A DNA stretch of 46,063 nt, from assembly GCA_013362405.1 (NCBI GenBank), contig JABFWF010000081.1, forward strand, positions 1 to 46,063, given 5' to 3'. Below the pieces are notes generated by a model that worked only from the letters and a program-made list of their open reading frames with translations, was not told the origin of the DNA and searched no databases. The position numbers were made by a program, and so were the translations under genes. Numbering within the stretch: position 1 is the first letter of the stretch; each line of letters begins with the position of its first letter. Shown here one piece after another: positions 39,506 through 46,063 of this stretch. The stretch comes from Lysobacter sp. GTDB taxonomy: Bacteria; Pseudomonadota; Gammaproteobacteria; Xanthomonadales; Xanthomonadaceae.

Positions 39506-40825
39506 TCAGTCCGGCGCGCGCTGCCGCAGCCGCGCGAGCTGGTTGTGGATGGTGCGCGGGCTCACCCCGAGCGCCGCCGCGGTCGCGCGCTTGTCGCCAT
39601 CGAAATGCGCCAGCGTGCGCAGCAGCATGGCCTTCTCCATTTCCGCATAGCTCATGCCCACGCGGAACACGAACTCGTCCCCGCGCGCGGCGGGCACGCT
39701 GCCGGCGCCGCGCTGCGGGTACAGCGACACCGCGTCGCCCTCGGCGACGAGGTAGGCGCGCGCGATGGCGCTGCGCAGCTCGCGCACGTTGCCGGGCCAC
39801 GCGTGCTCGCGCAGGGCCTGTGCGCAGCGCGCGTCGAGAAGGCGCCCGGTGCCGTGCTCGGCGTTGAGCTGGTCGAGGAACGCGTTGGCGAGCAGGACCG
39901 TGTCGTCGCCGCGCTCGCGCAGCGGCGGCAGCGCGATCTCGTAGCCCGCGAGGCGGTAGTACAGATCCTCGCGCAGCTGGCCGTCGGCGATGGCCGCGCG
40001 CGGATCGCGATTGGTGGCGGCGACCACGCGCACGGCCACCGCGATCTCCGCGTGGCCACCGACGCGCGTGACCAGGCCGGATTCCAGCACGCGCAGCAGG
40101 TACACCTGCATCTGCGGCGGCATCTCGGCGATCTCGTCGAGGAACAGCGTGCCGTGCTCGGCCTGCTCGAAGACGCCGATGTGGCGCGTGTTGGCGCCGG
40201 TGAAGCTGCCGCGCTCGTGGCCGAACAGCTGGCTGGCGAGCAGGTCCGGCGCGATGGCGCCGCAGTTGACCGCGACGAACGGCCCGCGCCGGCCGCTTGC
40301 GCGATGGATCGCGCGCGCGGCGATCTCCTTGCCGGTCCCCGTCTCGCCGGTGAGCAGCACCGGCACGCTGGTCGGCGCGATCTTCGCGATCTCCCGCCGC
40401 AGGCGCTGGATGGCGCGGCTTTCGCCGACGATGCCGAACTGTGGATCGCCGAGCGGCGCGCGCCGCGAGACGCGGATCGACACCTCGCGCAGCAGCTGCT
40501 CGAGCTTGTCCTGGCCGAGCGGCTTGCTGAGGTAGTCGGACGCCGGGAGCGGCGGGGCGGGAGGGGCATCGTCCGCGGGTTCGCCGGTGAGGAACACCAC
40601 CTTGCCGTAGTCGTCCAGCGCGCATTTCTGGATGACGTCGAAGCCCGAGCCGTCCGGCAGCGACACGTCCAGCAGGCTGAGGTCGCGCGGCATGCCGGCG
40701 TAGCGCTCGGACTCGGCGACCGAATGCGCGACATGGGTAGCGAAGCCGCGGCTGCGGGCGAAGTCCGCCGCTTCCGCGGCGAAGGCGCGATCGTTGTCGA
40801 CGATCACCAGGACCGGTTCGTGCAT
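39506..40825 (-). CDS. Sigma-54-dependent response regulator (REC-AAA+-Fis HTH)
   Basis: REC with LLDVSLPDGSG and LSKPL; LLTGETGTGKEIAARAIHRAS; GSFTGA; FLDEIAEMPPQMQ; HTH KRATAAALGVSPRTIHNQLARL. Confidence 0.92.
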   Translation of the reverse strand: MHEPVLVIVDNDRAFAAEAADFARSRGFATHVAHSVAESERYAGMPRDLSLLDVSLPDGSGFDVIQKCALDDYGKVVFLTGEPADDAPPAPPLPASDYLSKPLGQDKLEQLLREVSIRVSRRAPLGDPQFGIVGESRAIQRLRREIAKIAPTSVPVLLTGETGTGKEIAARAIHRASGRRGPFVAVNCGAIAPDLLASQLFGHERGSFTGANTRHIGVFEQAEHGTLFLDEIAEMPPQMQVYLLRVLESGLVTRVGGHAEIAVAVRVVAATNRDPRAAIADGQLREDLYYRLAGYEIALPPLRERGDDTVLLANAFLDQLNAEHGTGRLLDARCAQALREHAWPGNVRELRSAIARAYLVAEGDAVSLYPQRGAGSVPAARGDEFVFRVGMSYAEMEKAMLLRTLAHFDGDKRATAAALGVSPRTIHNQLARLRQRAPD

Positions 40826-41004
40826 GCCGGTGTTTATAGGGCAGCCGGCACTCGCATCCGGTGAAGGAAACCGCACCAAATCGCTGAATTCCCGGGAAAA
40901 TCCCGTTCACCATGATGACCGCGCGCCTGTCCGCCCGGCGCCTGTCACGCGCCGGCGACGTGCGCCTTCGCAAGGTGCCGCATTCAGTCGGGGTGGAGAC
41001 GGGG

Positions 41005-43119
41005 ATGGGCGCAGCGAGCGAACGCGCGGCGGTGGTGCTGCTCGCGGCCTGCGCATGCGCCGCGCACGCACAGCCGCCTGCGCCCGCAACGCTGCCCGGC
41101 GTGATCGTGACCGCCGCGCGCGCATCGCAGGGAACGCCGGCGGCGGTCGATCGCATCGACGCGGACGCGGTGCCGGCACGCAGCGGTCGCAGCGTGTCGG
41201 AACTGCTGCGGCGGGTGCCCGGCGTCGTCGCGCACGATCGGCAGAACCTGGCCCAGGACCTGCAGCTCGGCATGCGCGGCTTCGGCGCGCGCAGCGCGTT
41301 CGGCGTGCGCGGCGTGCAGCTGTTCGTCGACGGCATCCCGGCGACGATGCCGGACGGGCAGGGCCAGCTCTCGCACGTGCCGCTCGGCGCGCTGCAACGG
41401 GTGGACGTGCTGCGCGGCCCGTTCTCCGCGCTGTACGGCAATGCGGCCGGTGGCGTGCTCGAATTCTGGAGCAGGGACCCGCCGGCGCGACCCGCCTTCG
41501 GCATCCGCGCGGGTGGTGGCACGGATGACGGCGCGCGCGCGTCGCTGTGGTGGGGCGCACCGTGGGATGGCGACGGCAGCGGTGGTTACCGCCTCGATGG
41601 CGAGCACTACGACACCGCCGGCTACCGCACGCACGGCCGCGCCCGGCGCGACGTCGCCCAGGCCCGCCTGCTGTGGGATGGCGCCGACGGCACGCGTGTC
41701 GCGCTCACCGCCAATGGGCTCGACCTCGTCGCGCAGGATCCGCAAGGGCTCACCCTCGCGCAGGCGCAGGCAACGCCGCGCGCAGCCAGCGCCGGTGCGC
41801 TCGCGTTCGACACCCGCAAGCGCGTGCGCCAGCAGCAGCTCGGCCTGCGCGTCGAACATCCGCTCGGCGACGGCGATGCATGGACGGTCAGCGTGTGGAC
41901 CGGCCACCGCGCGACCTTCCAGATGCTGTCGGTCCCGGTCGCGGCGCAGGCTGCGCCCGGCAGCGGTGGCGGCGCGGTCGACCTGGACCGCGATTACGGC
42001 GGCGTCGACGCACGCTGGCGGCATCGCCTGGCGGACGGCGCGCGGCCGCTCGACCTCACGGTCGGCGCGCAGTGGCAGCGCAGCAGCGAGCATCGGCGCG
42101 GCTACGAGAATTTCGCCGGCGGCCGGCTCGGCGTGGTCGGCGCGCTGCGGCGCGACGAACAGGACGGCGTCGACGACCACGACCTGTATGCCGAGGTGCG
42201 ATGGCGCTTCGCGCCCCGCTGGAACGCGACGCTCGGCGTGCGCCGCAGCGTGGTGGCGTTCCACTCCGACGATGCCTATGTCGCACCCGGCAATCCCGAC
42301 GACAGCGGACGGTTGCATTACGCACGGACGACACCGGTGTTCGGATTGCTGTACGCACCGGACGACGGAATGGAATTGTTCGCAAACGCCGGGCGTGGCT
42401 TCGAGACGCCGACGTTCTCCGAGCTCGCCTATCGCAACGACGGCGGCAGCGGACTGAACACCACGCTGCGCCCGGCGCGCAGCCGCAGCGCCGAGCTCGG
42501 CCTGCGCGCGCACCGCGGTGGCCACGCGCTGGAGTTCGTCGCCTTCGCCAGCCGCACCGACGACGAACTGGTGGTCGCGAGCAGCATCGGCGGACGCAGC
42601 ACGTACGCGAACGCGACGCGCAGCGCGCGCGACGGTTGGGAACTGTCGGTGGACGGGCCGCTGGCGCCGCGCTGGCGCTATGCGGTCGCGCTCACCCGGC
42701 TCGATGCCCGCTACACGCGCGCCTTCGCGACTTGTCGCGCGCCGCCGTGCGCGGCGCCGGACACGCCCATCGCCGCCGGCAGCCACATTCCCGCCACCGC
42801 CGATGCGGCATGGGCGGAACTGCGCTGGTCGCCGGATGGCGACGTCGATGTCTTCCTGCAGGGCGATGCGACCGCGCGCCTGTACGCGGACGACGCGAAC
42901 ACCGAGTGGGCGCCCGGCCACGCCACCTTGGATCTCGGCGTCGAACGGCATTGGCGCGTCGGCGGGCGCCGGCTCACCGCCTTCGTGCGCATCGACAACC
43001 TGCTGGACCGGCGCGCGATCGGTTCGGTCATCGTCGACGAGGCCAACGGCCGCTATTTCGAGCCGGCGCCCGGGCGTGGCGGCTGGATCGGACTGGCGCT
43101 GGAGCCGGCGCACCCGTGA
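41005..43119 (+). CDS. TonB-dependent receptor, PqqU/YncD-like
   Basis: Plug RQNLAQDLQLGMRGFGARSAFGVRGVQLFVDGIPATMPDGQGQ and C-terminus DNLLDRRAIGSVIVDEANGRYFEPAPGR resemble recalled E. coli YncD; ORF open from 40912. Confidence 0.85.
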   Translation: MGAASERAAVVLLAACACAAHAQPPAPATLPGVIVTAARASQGTPAAVDRIDADAVPARSGRSVSELLRRVPGVVAHDRQNLAQDLQLGMRGFGARSAFGVRGVQLFVDGIPATMPDGQGQLSHVPLGALQRVDVLRGPFSALYGNAAGGVLEFWSRDPPARPAFGIRAGGGTDDGARASLWWGAPWDGDGSGGYRLDGEHYDTAGYRTHGRARRDVAQARLLWDGADGTRVALTANGLDLVAQDPQGLTLAQAQATPRAASAGALAFDTRKRVRQQQLGLRVEHPLGDGDAWTVSVWTGHRATFQMLSVPVAAQAAPGSGGGAVDLDRDYGGVDARWRHRLADGARPLDLTVGAQWQRSSEHRRGYENFAGGRLGVVGALRRDEQDGVDDHDLYAEVRWRFAPRWNATLGVRRSVVAFHSDDAYVAPGNPDDSGRLHYARTTPVFGLLYAPDDGMELFANAGRGFETPTFSELAYRNDGGSGLNTTLRPARSRSAELGLRAHRGGHALEFVAFASRTDDELVVASSIGGRSTYANATRSARDGWELSVDGPLAPRWRYAVALTRLDARYTRAFATCRAPPCAAPDTPIAAGSHIPATADAAWAELRWSPDGDVDVFLQGDATARLYADDANTEWAPGHATLDLGVERHWRVGGRRLTAFVRIDNLLDRRAIGSVIVDEANGRYFEPAPGRGGWIGLALEPAHP

Positions 43120-43169: not shown

Positions 43170-43625
43170 ATGCAGGTCAACTCGCGCAGCGCGGCGTGGA
43201 AGCAGGGCGTCGCCGTCGTGGTGGTGGCCGCCGCGAGCGTGATCGCGCTGCTGTACCGCATGCATGCACCCTTCGACCGGGATACGCTCGACATCCAGGT
43301 CGAGGCGCTGCACTCGCACGCGGCAGAGGCGGGCCTGCTGGTGCGCGAAGCCCGCGCCGACCGGCTGGCGCCGGGTTTCGTCGCCGGGCACGCGCGGCAG
43401 CTGGCGGAGAACGTGCGGCGTGCGCAGGAGGCGCTGTCCGCCACGCCCGCGCAGGTGCGGTTCGCGTCACTGCAGGCCAGCGCGCAGGCGCTCGGTGCGG
43501 TCTTGCATGCGCGGTTGCAGGCATTGGCGCTGGACGGCCGCGCGCCGCGGACGCGCGCGTTCGGCTTCGACGACATTGCGCAGCGGTTCGACGCGCTGCA
43601 CCAGCGACTCGCGCCGGGCGGGTGA
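43170..43625 (+). CDS. Membrane-anchored hypothetical protein
   Basis: Single N-terminal TM (GVAVVVVAAASVIALLY) and helical periplasmic-type domain; ends 1 nt before the NRAMP gene. Confidence 0.7.
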   Translation: MQVNSRSAAWKQGVAVVVVAAASVIALLYRMHAPFDRDTLDIQVEALHSHAAEAGLLVREARADRLAPGFVAGHARQLAENVRRAQEALSATPAQVRFASLQASAQALGAVLHARLQALALDGRAPRTRAFGFDDIAQRFDALHQRLAPGG

Positions 43626-43626
43626 C

Positions 43627-44853
43627 GTGTCCAGGTGGCTGGAACTCTTCCTCGGCATCCTCACCGCGATGGGCGGCTTCGTCGAGATCGGCGAGCTCAC
43701 CTTCATGATGAACGCCGGCAGCAAGTTCGATTACCGCCTGCTGTGGGTGGTGTTGCTCGGCGTCGTCGGCATCATCGTCTATGGCGAGATCGCCGGCCGC
43801 ATCGCCTGCGTGCGCGGGCAGGGCGTGTTCAACGTGATCCGCGAACGCGCCGGCGCGCGGCTCGGCCTGCTCACCGTGGTGTCGTCGCTGCTGGTGTGCC
43901 TGCTCACCTGCGCGGCGGAGATCGGCGCGATCGCGCTGCTGTGGCAGCTGCTTTCCGGCTGGCCATACCGCGGCCTGGTGCTGCTCGCGCTCGCCTTCCT
44001 GCTGCTGGTGATCTGGTGGTTCCCGTTCAAGTGGATCGAGCGCGTGTTCGGCCTGTTCGGCCTGCTGATGACGGTGTTCGTGGTGGTGGCCTGGCGGATG
44101 CAGCCGGACTGGGGCGAGGTGGCTTTGGGGCTGGTGCCGACGCTGCCCCCCGACAAGCCGCTGCTTTACGCGTATTACGCGGTCGCGCTGCTCAGCGCGG
44201 TGATGCTGCCGTACGAAACGTACTTCTACGGCGCCGGAGCGGTCGAGGACCACTGGACGCCGCACGACATCCGGCTCAATCGCGGCATCGTGATCGTCGG
44301 TTTCGCGCTCGGCGGACTGCTCGCGGCGGCGCTGCTGGCGATCGGCAAGCTGTACCTCGGGCCGCTGCAGGTCGAGGCCGGCCTGCCCGGCACCGCCGCC
44401 ATGAGCGCGGCCACGCGGCTCGGGCGCGCCGGGCTGTGGCTGGCGCTGGCCGGCATGTTCTTCGCGTTCGCCGGCGCGGCGATCGAGACGGCGATGTCCG
44501 CGGCGTACGGCCTCGCGCAGTTCTTCGGCTGGCCATGGGGCAAGTTCCGCGCGCCGCGCAAGGCGCCGCGCTTCGTGCTGGCGTGGGTGCTGGTGCTGGT
44601 GGCCGCGACGCTGGTGATCCTCACCGGCCTGGATCCGATCAAGGTGGTCGAGTATTCGATCGTGTTCTCGGTGGTGATCCTGCCGCTGAGCTACTTCCCG
44701 ATGATGGCGATCTCGCGCGACCGCGACATCATGGGCGCGCACGTCAACGGCGCGCTGGTCAACGTGCTCGGGTGGGGCTACTTCGTGCTGATCTCCGTCG
44801 CGGCCGTCGCCGCGATCCCGCTGCTGGTGCTCACGCACGGAGGCGAGGGATGA
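43627..44853 (+). CDS. Divergent NRAMP-family divalent metal transporter
   Basis: About 11 TM; NRAMP-like order (TAMGGFVEIGELTFMMNAGSKFDYRLLWVVLLG; AVMLPYETYFYGAGAVEDHW) with altered ligand motifs; GTG start. Confidence 0.83.
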   Translation: MSRWLELFLGILTAMGGFVEIGELTFMMNAGSKFDYRLLWVVLLGVVGIIVYGEIAGRIACVRGQGVFNVIRERAGARLGLLTVVSSLLVCLLTCAAEIGAIALLWQLLSGWPYRGLVLLALAFLLLVIWWFPFKWIERVFGLFGLLMTVFVVVAWRMQPDWGEVALGLVPTLPPDKPLLYAYYAVALLSAVMLPYETYFYGAGAVEDHWTPHDIRLNRGIVIVGFALGGLLAAALLAIGKLYLGPLQVEAGLPGTAAMSAATRLGRAGLWLALAGMFFAFAGAAIETAMSAAYGLAQFFGWPWGKFRAPRKAPRFVLAWVLVLVAATLVILTGLDPIKVVEYSIVFSVVILPLSYFPMMAISRDRDIMGAHVNGALVNVLGWGYFVLISVAAVAAIPLLVLTHGGEG

Positions 44854-45230
44854 GCCGGTGGGAGCGCAAGCCCGAGTTCACCGACCTGTGCCGGCAGGTG
44901 CTCGACCATGCGGTGCTCGACACCGACGACTGGCCCTGCGGCGTGGTCGACGACCTCGAGCTGGACGGCGCACCCGGCCAGCCGCTGCGCGTGACCGCGC
45001 TGCTGGTCGGGCCGGGTGCGTGGGTGCCACGGTTGCCGCCGCTGTTCTCGCGACTGCTGCCGCATGTCGTCGGCACCCGCTGCGTGCGGGTGCCATGGAG
45101 CGAGGTGTGCGTGGTCGGCGAGCATGTCCGCCTGCGCGCACGCGCGGCCGAGCTCGGTCTCGGCACGATCGACCGTAGGCTCGGGCTGGCGATCGCGAAG
45201 CTGCCGGGCAGCGACAGGAGTGCGCCATGA
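44850..45230 (+). CDS. PRC-barrel-like protein
   Basis: CGVVDDLELDGAPGQPLRVTALLVGPGAW...RVPWSEVCVVGEHVRLR; ATGA overlap with the NRAMP gene. Confidence 0.6.
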   Translation: MSRWERKPEFTDLCRQVLDHAVLDTDDWPCGVVDDLELDGAPGQPLRVTALLVGPGAWVPRLPPLFSRLLPHVVGTRCVRVPWSEVCVVGEHVRLRARAAELGLGTIDRRLGLAIAKLPGSDRSAP

Positions 45231-45520
45231 CGCCGCGTCGCCTGACCCAGCTGCAGGACCTGCCCGTCGTCGCCGAGGACGGCCGCAGGCTCGGCCGCGT
45301 GTTCGAGATGCGCAGTCCCGGCGCGGCGGAAACCGAGCCCACGCGCGATGCGCGCCTCGTCGATTGCCTGCTGTGCGGCCGGCGCGGGCTGTTCGAGCGG
45401 CTGGGCTGGAAGCAGCCCCATCCGCGCGCGGTTCCCTGGAGTGCCGTGATCGAGGTCGGCGAGCGCCAGTTGCGCGTGCGCGGCCGCGCCGACGACTACG
45501 AGACGCTGGAGGGCCCATGA
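45227..45520 (+). CDS. PRC-barrel domain protein
   Basis: LQDLPVVAEDGRRLGRVFEMR...GRRGLFERLGWKQPHPRAVPWSAVIEVGERQLRVR; ATGA overlap. Confidence 0.7.
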   Translation: MTPRRLTQLQDLPVVAEDGRRLGRVFEMRSPGAAETEPTRDARLVDCLLCGRRGLFERLGWKQPHPRAVPWSAVIEVGERQLRVRGRADDYETLEGP

Positions 45521-46063
45521 GCCGCGCCTGGCCGTGCCTGATCGTCGCGCTGGCGACCCTGTCCGCGGCCGCCGCGCCGCCACCCCTGCGGCCGGCTGCG
45601 GTGGACGGCGACTGGACGATGCCGGCGCACGACTACGCGAGCACGCGCTTCAGCCCGCTCGCGGCGATCGACCGCAACAACGTCGGCGCATTGAAGGTCG
45701 AGTTCACCTTTTCCACCGGCGTCAACCGCGGGCAGGAAGCCGCGCCGATCGTGGTCGACGGGACGATGTTCATCGTCGCGCCCTATCCGAACGTCGTCTA
45801 CGCGCTCGACCTCACCCGGCCGGGCGCGCCGCTCAAATGGAAGTACCAGCCGCATCCCGAGGCCGCCGCGCAGGGCGTGGCCTGCTGCGACGTGGTCAAC
45901 CGCGGCGCGGTGTACGCGGATGGCAAGGTGGTCTTCAACACGCTCGACGGCAACACCATCGCGCTCGATGCGAAGAACGGAAAGGAGTTGTGGAAGACCA
46001 GTCTCGCGGACATCCAGACCGGCGAGAGCATCACCATGGCGCCGCTGGTGGTGAAGGACAAGG
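45517..46063 (+). CDS. PQQ-dependent methanol/ethanol-type dehydrogenase, XoxF-like (3' truncated by window)
   Basis: Signal peptide; DWTMPAHDYASTRFSPLAAIDRNNVGALKVEFTFSTGVNRGQEAAPIVVDGTMFIVAPYPNVVYALDL; GVACCDVVNRGAVYADGKVVFNTLDGNTIALDAKNGKELWKT; adjacent CysCys. Confidence 0.9.
   Translation, partial: MSRAWPCLIVALATLSAAAAPPPLRPAAVDGDWTMPAHDYASTRFSPLAAIDRNNVGALKVEFTFSTGVNRGQEAAPIVVDGTMFIVAPYPNVVYALDLTRPGAPLKWKYQPHPEAAAQGVACCDVVNRGAVYADGKVVFNTLDGNTIALDAKNGKELWKTSLADIQTGESITMAPLVVKDK

Follow-up and report, generated by a model that had tools for sequence, protein, structure and literature searches.

The window analysed here, a stretch of 46,063 nucleotides from Lysobacter sp., encodes an NRAMP-related transporter (positions 43627 to 44853, forward strand) in which the metal site of canonical NRAMPs is rewritten, and whose gene lies in one operon with that of a XoxF-type methanol dehydrogenase. 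The explanation that we put first, with a probability a little below even, is that the protein is an inner-membrane LeuT-fold transporter of hard cations, most probably light Ln3+, that supplies the XoxF3 methanol dehydrogenase system. The inner-membrane transporter for lanthanides is still missing, and a clade of NRAMPs tied to XoxF3 and bearing a carboxylate site is a specific candidate for it; it may be a little-known import route for lanthanides or another hard metal ion.

An NRAMP fold with a rewritten metal site

The 408-residue protein, read from a GTG start, is a member of the NRAMP/SLC11 superfamily: it matches the Pfam Nramp family (PF01566) with E=5.6e-43 and 147.8 bits, the cut-off being 29.8, and the nearest PDB entry by profile is EleNRMT (7qia, E=9.9e-50). 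The NCBI MntH and nramp models score it far below their cut-offs. An AlphaFold2 model built from 21 family sequences reached a pLDDT of 86 and a pTM of 0.87, and the top Foldseek matches of this model were all NRAMPs, EleNRMT being the best (TM 0.86), followed by canonical NRAMPs. The helix breaks of the model, at residues 17-20 and 194-196, coincide with the TM1 and TM6 motifs.

TM1 of the protein is GGFVEIGELTFMMNAGSKFDYRLLW and TM6 is SAVMLPYETYFYGAG. When aligned to DraNramp and to EleNRMT, E20 stands opposite DraNramp D56 and EleNRMT D55, E23 opposite N59 and G58, and L194 opposite M230 and A227, respectively; Y196, Y201 and I345 stand opposite H232, H237 and Q378 of DraNramp. The unwound segment of TM1 (43684 to 43695, forward strand) is E20-I-G-E23 in place of the canonical DPGN, and that of TM6 (44206 to 44217, forward strand), placed by the alignments, the model and the comparison within the clade, is L194-P-Y196-E197 in place of M-P-H-x. 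The earlier note had proposed that DPGN became EIGE and M-P-H became L-P-Y at the ligand positions themselves, which is borne out by the profile alignments and the AlphaFold model; a check for other residues at these positions, made on the alignments and the fold, found none shifted.

Beyond E20 and E23, the site is surrounded by a ring of conserved acids, all encoded on the forward strand: E98 in TM3 (43918 to 43920), which aligns with DraNramp E134, E197 in TM6, E287 in TM8 (44485 to 44487), recognised by its clade-wide conservation, and E342 in TM10 (44650 to 44652), which the alignment places one turn before the position of the canonical Q378. This canonical TM10 Gln is replaced by Ile or Val, Ile345 in the window protein. 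A comparison of TM1-5 with TM6-10 as internal repeats gave no signal of symmetry among the acids.

Genes of the operon and its surroundings

An operon of near-abutting or overlapping genes runs from the small upstream ORF to XoxF: the small upstream gene stops 1 nt ahead of the NRAMP start, and overlaps of 4 nt link the genes of NRAMP, two PRC-barrel proteins (PRC1 and PRC2) and the methanol dehydrogenase in turn. The latter, a XoxF-type PQQ-dependent enzyme whose closest PDB entries are 7o6z and 4mae, occupies positions 45517 to 46063 (forward strand) and is cut by the contig end. The rest of it was found on another contig of the same genome, C77 (L141), with the motif PHDLYDYDAVNE, and SPHDLYDYDAVNE on this contig is the extra-Asp D-Y-D lanthanide signature of XoxF. 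C77 very likely continues the window, its positions 1-115 matching window positions 45949-46063 (about 115 bp, with one mismatch). Downstream of the XoxF end on C77 come genes for a cytochrome c, CoxII and CoxI; this cytC-CoxII-CoxI order fits the published XoxF3 pattern, and the XoxF3 label is taken here from this gene order.

Upstream lies a PqqU-like TonB-dependent receptor (41005 to 43119, forward strand; the ORF opens at 40912 and 41005 is the likely start), whose best PDB matches are PqqU (9c4o) and YncD (6v81) with E about 1e-140, and which scores 569.7 bits on the NCBIfam PqqU model NF041535, under its cut-off of 1200. A sigma-54 response regulator (39506 to 40825, reverse strand; Pfam Sigma54_activat, 2.3e-65) is divergently oriented and stands beside the same operon in a Lysobacteraceae MAG (L050), where regulator, receptor, small gene and transporter follow in the same order. 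In Lysobacter segetis, L. terrigena and the genome G096, the cassette is found elsewhere and adjoins neither receptor nor dehydrogenase. In the Acidobacteriota MAG G819 (L052, 5240-8179), the EIGE NRAMP adjoins XdhC-like and xanthine-dehydrogenase-like genes on the opposite strand, and XoxF3 is on a different contig.

Searches for a sigma-70 promoter by consensus and for a sigma-54-like site near the operon start found none, and Rfam gave no match to an M-box or other riboswitch in the window and four related loci. PqqC had no match in the genome of the window, in a search whose control matched nowhere and on an assembly that is 84% complete.

A conserved cassette of small partner proteins

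Most members of the clade to which the protein belongs share a cassette consisting of a small anchored protein or lipoprotein, the NRAMP and PRC-barrel proteins. In the window, the first of these is a single-TM protein of 151 residues, probably periplasmic and helical (43170 to 43625, forward strand), whose ORF is conserved by position: all 54 family loci scanned have an ORF that stops shortly ahead of the NRAMP gene. A lipobox-like motif is present in 37 of these 54 small ORFs, and the Lysobacter ones have one hydrophobic stretch, at the N-terminus. A profile built from the Actinobacterial upstream proteins matches most of the Gram-negative ones, weakly, and judging by these sequence matches the two sets are likely, but not firmly, homologous. 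No Pfam family exceeded its cut-off for these lipoprotein-like proteins, which are conserved in position in four phyla.

PRC1 (44850 to 45230, forward strand; 126 residues) is a PRC-barrel-like cytoplasmic protein encoded by a conserved downstream ORF; its AlphaFold model is of moderate quality (pLDDT 70), and the top PDB matches of this model are PRC-barrel proteins, with a best Foldseek E of 1.7e-3. PRC2 (45227 to 45520, forward strand; 97 residues) is a second PRC-barrel protein, the window copy of which matches PF05239 with E=5.8e-4 and 20.3 bits against a cut-off of 21.2, which its relatives exceed. Downstream of NRAMP, the family loci carry PRC1 and usually PRC2 too; at L052 and L053 no PRC gene lies directly downstream. 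A combination of NRAMP with PRC-barrel proteins was not found in the papers searched.

In Actinomycetota, the neighbourhoods of L055, L062, L071 and L072 appear by eye to be rich in general-stress genes (CsbD-like, CBS-domain, SRPBCC-like and CYTH/CHAD-like), which suggests that the DIGD form of the cassette sits in a stress-island setting. This Actinobacterial branch is a large group with a conserved four-gene cassette.

Distribution and variation of the clade

All 30 sampled members fall into one clade of the tree (support 100/100), separate from canonical NRAMPs, from EleNRMT-type proteins and from the GPGT and DPSG groups. Across the clade the TM1 motif is [DE]-x-G-[DENSAQ]. Relatives with DIGD and TPYE are common in Actinomycetota (28 of 247 sampled species), the one relative in Chloroflexota has DIGE and MPYE, and the farther Acidobacteriota members have [DE][IVL]G[SAQ] in TM1. 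EIGE and LPYE are no sequencing accident, because both are identical in five Lysobacteraceae genomes, the window's own included, and in one Acidobacteriota MAG, and because the members from Actinomycetota conserve DIGD with [TLMVS]PY[EQ].

The acid at position 20 is kept throughout the clade, as is E287, which is absent from the other NRAMP groups compared. E98 is near-invariant, with Gln in two sequences (L119 and L167), and P195 is conserved with few exceptions. E23, E197 and E342 are held in most EIGE and DIGD members and lost in the Acidobacteriota branch. Lack of a Met is not diagnostic, since position 194 can be Leu, Thr, Met, Val or Ser.

A few gene copies stood out. Two overlapping frames make up one Actinobacterial DIGD NRAMP gene (L123, G784:C1:3537296-3538509), which reflects a frameshift error or else a decaying copy. 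The NRAMP family is unusually expanded in two Acidobacteriota genomes, with 10 matches in G845 and 11 in G871, several of them divided between fragments. The other two NRAMP genes of the genome of the window, L001 (G000:C251) and L002 (G000:C40), are of the DPSG Nramp-related type; a canonical MntH with DPGN and MPH was not found in this 84% complete assembly.

Co-occurrence with XoxF3

A XoxF3-like dehydrogenase, 59-70% identical to that of the window, was found in 7 of 8 clade-positive Acidobacteriota and in none of 72 clade-negative ones (Fisher p=2.5e-9, from counts that treat genomes as independent and ignore relatedness). Another XoxF, 51-52% identical, is present in 3 of the 72 negatives, and 35 of the 72, which lack both XoxF3 and the clade, have NRAMPs of other kinds that exceed the Pfam cut-off; the link to XoxF3 is thus specific to the window clade. 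For Lysobacteraceae, where an N-terminal XoxF query was run on a sample of 120, a XoxF3-like enzyme occurs in 4 of 5 clade-positive genomes and approximately 2 of 118 others (p=8e-6). Transporter and dehydrogenase genes lie on separate contigs in several genomes and about 218 kb apart on one contig in G1126; since they are often unlinked, the co-occurrence is not merely that of one cluster inherited together. Every XoxF of clade-positive genomes caught by the motif search has D-[YW]-D; two (L146 and L171) escaped the pattern.

The association has exceptions in both directions. The one-contig genome G096 has the NRAMP cassette and no XoxF3, and G074 and G105 have XoxF3 and no NRAMP of the window clade. 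Moreover, no XoxF was found in the 32 Actinobacterial and Chloroflexi genomes tested, carriers of the Actinobacterial DIGD form included, and the clade thus cannot be solely a XoxF accessory. As its Actinobacterial branch shows, the clade is older than service to XoxF3 or extends beyond it, and this branch has either a different substrate or an as yet unrecognised use of lanthanides or another hard ion.

Discussion

The protein reported here had been predicted to prefer a hard cation, Ln3+ among others, on the grounds that its site has two Glu and no Met. Genomic context supports the prediction: the operon with a DYD-type XoxF, the PqqU-like receptor and the co-occurrence with XoxF3 in two phyla. 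The residue argument itself proved weaker, with EIGS and DLGQ, which have one TM1 acid, in XoxF3-positive Acidobacteriota and DIGD in genomes without XoxF. We have dropped two TM1 acids as a mark of lanthanide use, the second acid not tracking XoxF3, and the absence of Met is not decisive because it is common to EleNRMT, which transports Mg2+.

For the Gram-negative members Ln3+ fits best as the leading substrate, with Ca2+ and Mg2+/Mn2+ as its main rivals. We infer the transport itself, its direction and substrate, the ligand acids and the roles of the small proteins to be as follows. PQQ would enter through the PqqU-like TonB receptor, and the small anchored protein or lipoprotein would pass the cation to the periplasmic face of the transporter, or gate that face. 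Instead of the Asp-Asn-Met site, E20, E23 and the backbone of TM6 would bind the cation, aided by E98, E197 and E287, and it would move inwards through alternating access. E98 is a plausible extra ligand by analogy, as the TM3 Glu binds Mn2+ itself in a clade-B NRAMP (PMC12873925). The protein lacks the TM6b histidines that proton-coupled NRAMPs have, and this points, again by analogy, to a proton-independent uniporter like EleNRMT. The two cytoplasmic PRC-barrel proteins are likely to be regulators or metal acceptors, if they are analogous to MgtE-N, the partner protein of NrmT (PMC4072509). A point against a lanthanide importer, beside the exceptions to the co-occurrence, is that XoxF is periplasmic, so that import into the cytoplasm is not strictly needed.

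A possible, though rather doubtful, alternative is an EleNRMT-like uniporter for Mg2+/Mn2+ or for divalent ions broadly, the link to XoxF3 then reflecting general metal or redox physiology. EleNRMT is the closest solved structure by both sequence and fold, and it carries both ions with a single acid in TM1, an Asp (PMC8806188). Furthermore, the NrmT of Acidobacterium capsulatum apparently preferred Mn2+ (PMC4072509), and XoxF is absent alongside the Actinobacterial members of the clade. The window protein lies, however, outside the EleNRMT branch, shows neither DxxG nor TxxA, and lacks the TM10 Gln that is important in EleNRMT; several clade genomes already have other NRAMPs, canonical MntH included, and the co-occurrence is specific to XoxF3. 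That the protein takes up or exports Ca2+, and so adjusts calcium for PQQ enzymes or under stress, appears unlikely, given that the linked dehydrogenase bears a lanthanide and not a calcium signature and that the cassette has no known Ca2+ homeostasis gene. Nevertheless, an acidic site is well suited to Ca2+, an ion with a radius near that of light Ln3+; the site is rich in carboxylates and has no Met, replacement of the Met in EcoDMT yields Ca2+ permeation (PMC8806188), and a Ca2+ role is compatible also with the XoxF-less Actinobacteria.

The transporter-type fold with its helix breaks, and the TM1, TM3 and TM8 acids conserved over four phyla, favour a cation path and leave only a slight chance for a protein that does not transport but acts as a sensor (transceptor) or as an assembly factor for a XoxF3 and cytochrome oxidase module that has the PRC-barrel proteins as its output. 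What speaks for such a role is that two conserved cytoplasmic PRC proteins with a conserved periplasmic partner resemble a signalling or assembly unit, and that cytochrome oxidase genes are nearby. The broadest form of the lanthanide hypothesis makes the whole clade dedicated importers of trivalent lanthanides, the first inner-membrane route of NRAMP type (non-ABC), with the DIGD branch of Actinomycetota marking an unknown XoxF-independent lanthanide process; we regard it as quite improbable. The more restricted reading, a hard-cation transporter that supplies XoxF3, would add a testable new substrate to the range of the NRAMP family (Mn/Fe, Mg, Al).

Comparison with known systems

With canonical NRAMP/MntH proteins (DraNramp, ScaDMT, EcoDMT), the window protein shares the Pfam family, the LeuT-type fold, the breaks in TM1 and TM6 and the TM3 Glu (E134). 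Unlike in these Mn2+/Fe2+ transporters, DPGN, Met230, His232 and His237 are all replaced, ExxE and AxxL standing for DxxN and A/CxxM and Y196 and Y201 for the two histidines; we rejected this assignment. EleNRMT and NrmT are likewise non-canonical and have a small cytoplasmic partner gene, but the partner is MgtE-N there and a PRC-barrel protein here. Assignment to these Mg2+ transporters was rejected too, on motifs, tree and partner gene: the window protein belongs to a separate clade (100/100), and their site is DxxG and TxxA/T, whereas the site here is [DE]xG[DE]-AxxL/T and the TM10 Gln is lost. The plant Al3+ transporter SiNRAT (8ont) binds Al3+ and Ga3+, and the NRAMP fold thus accommodates trivalent ions (PMC10115441), as is proposed here for a trivalent hard cation. 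Its DxxN-AxxT site is near that of canonical plant NRAMPs and differs from ExxE-AxxL, and NRAT was not retained as a candidate. The protein also resembles the 'Nramp-related' groups of Ray, Berry and Gaudet 2026 (PMC12873925), which are paraphyletic and have diverse residues in place of DPGN/MPH; their tree very likely includes the window clade.

The closest precedent is that of Voutsinos et al. 2024 (PMC10875860), here cited for the part of the article available. It describes XoxF3, common in soils and without experimental work, in Acidobacteria and Gemmatimonadetes, where the clusters also hold cytochrome oxidase genes, YncE and TonB. Lanthanide uptake has, according to it, just two verified requirements, a TonB receptor and a periplasmic ABC system. 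NRAMP genes are reported there in the XoxF3 clusters of seven Acidobacteria and two Gemmatimonadetes genomes, many flanked by three small proteins of 110-130 aa, and a role in Ln transport is suggested; the operon link between NRAMP and XoxF3 is, in that part, already reported for other phyla. The site analysis, the clade, the identity of the PRC proteins, the Lysobacteraceae and Actinobacterial members and the genome-wide co-occurrence were found neither in this part nor in the other papers searched. One of the Acidobacterial loci studied here, L164 (G1018), has the order XoxF, cytC, CoxII, CoxI, CoxIII-like, CtaG-like, NRAMP, PRC1, PRC2, YncE-like, TonB, which matches the clusters as described in the same part (XoxF3-cytC-Cox-CtaG-YncE-TonB with NRAMP), and its NRAMP falls in the 30-member clade of the window (100/100).
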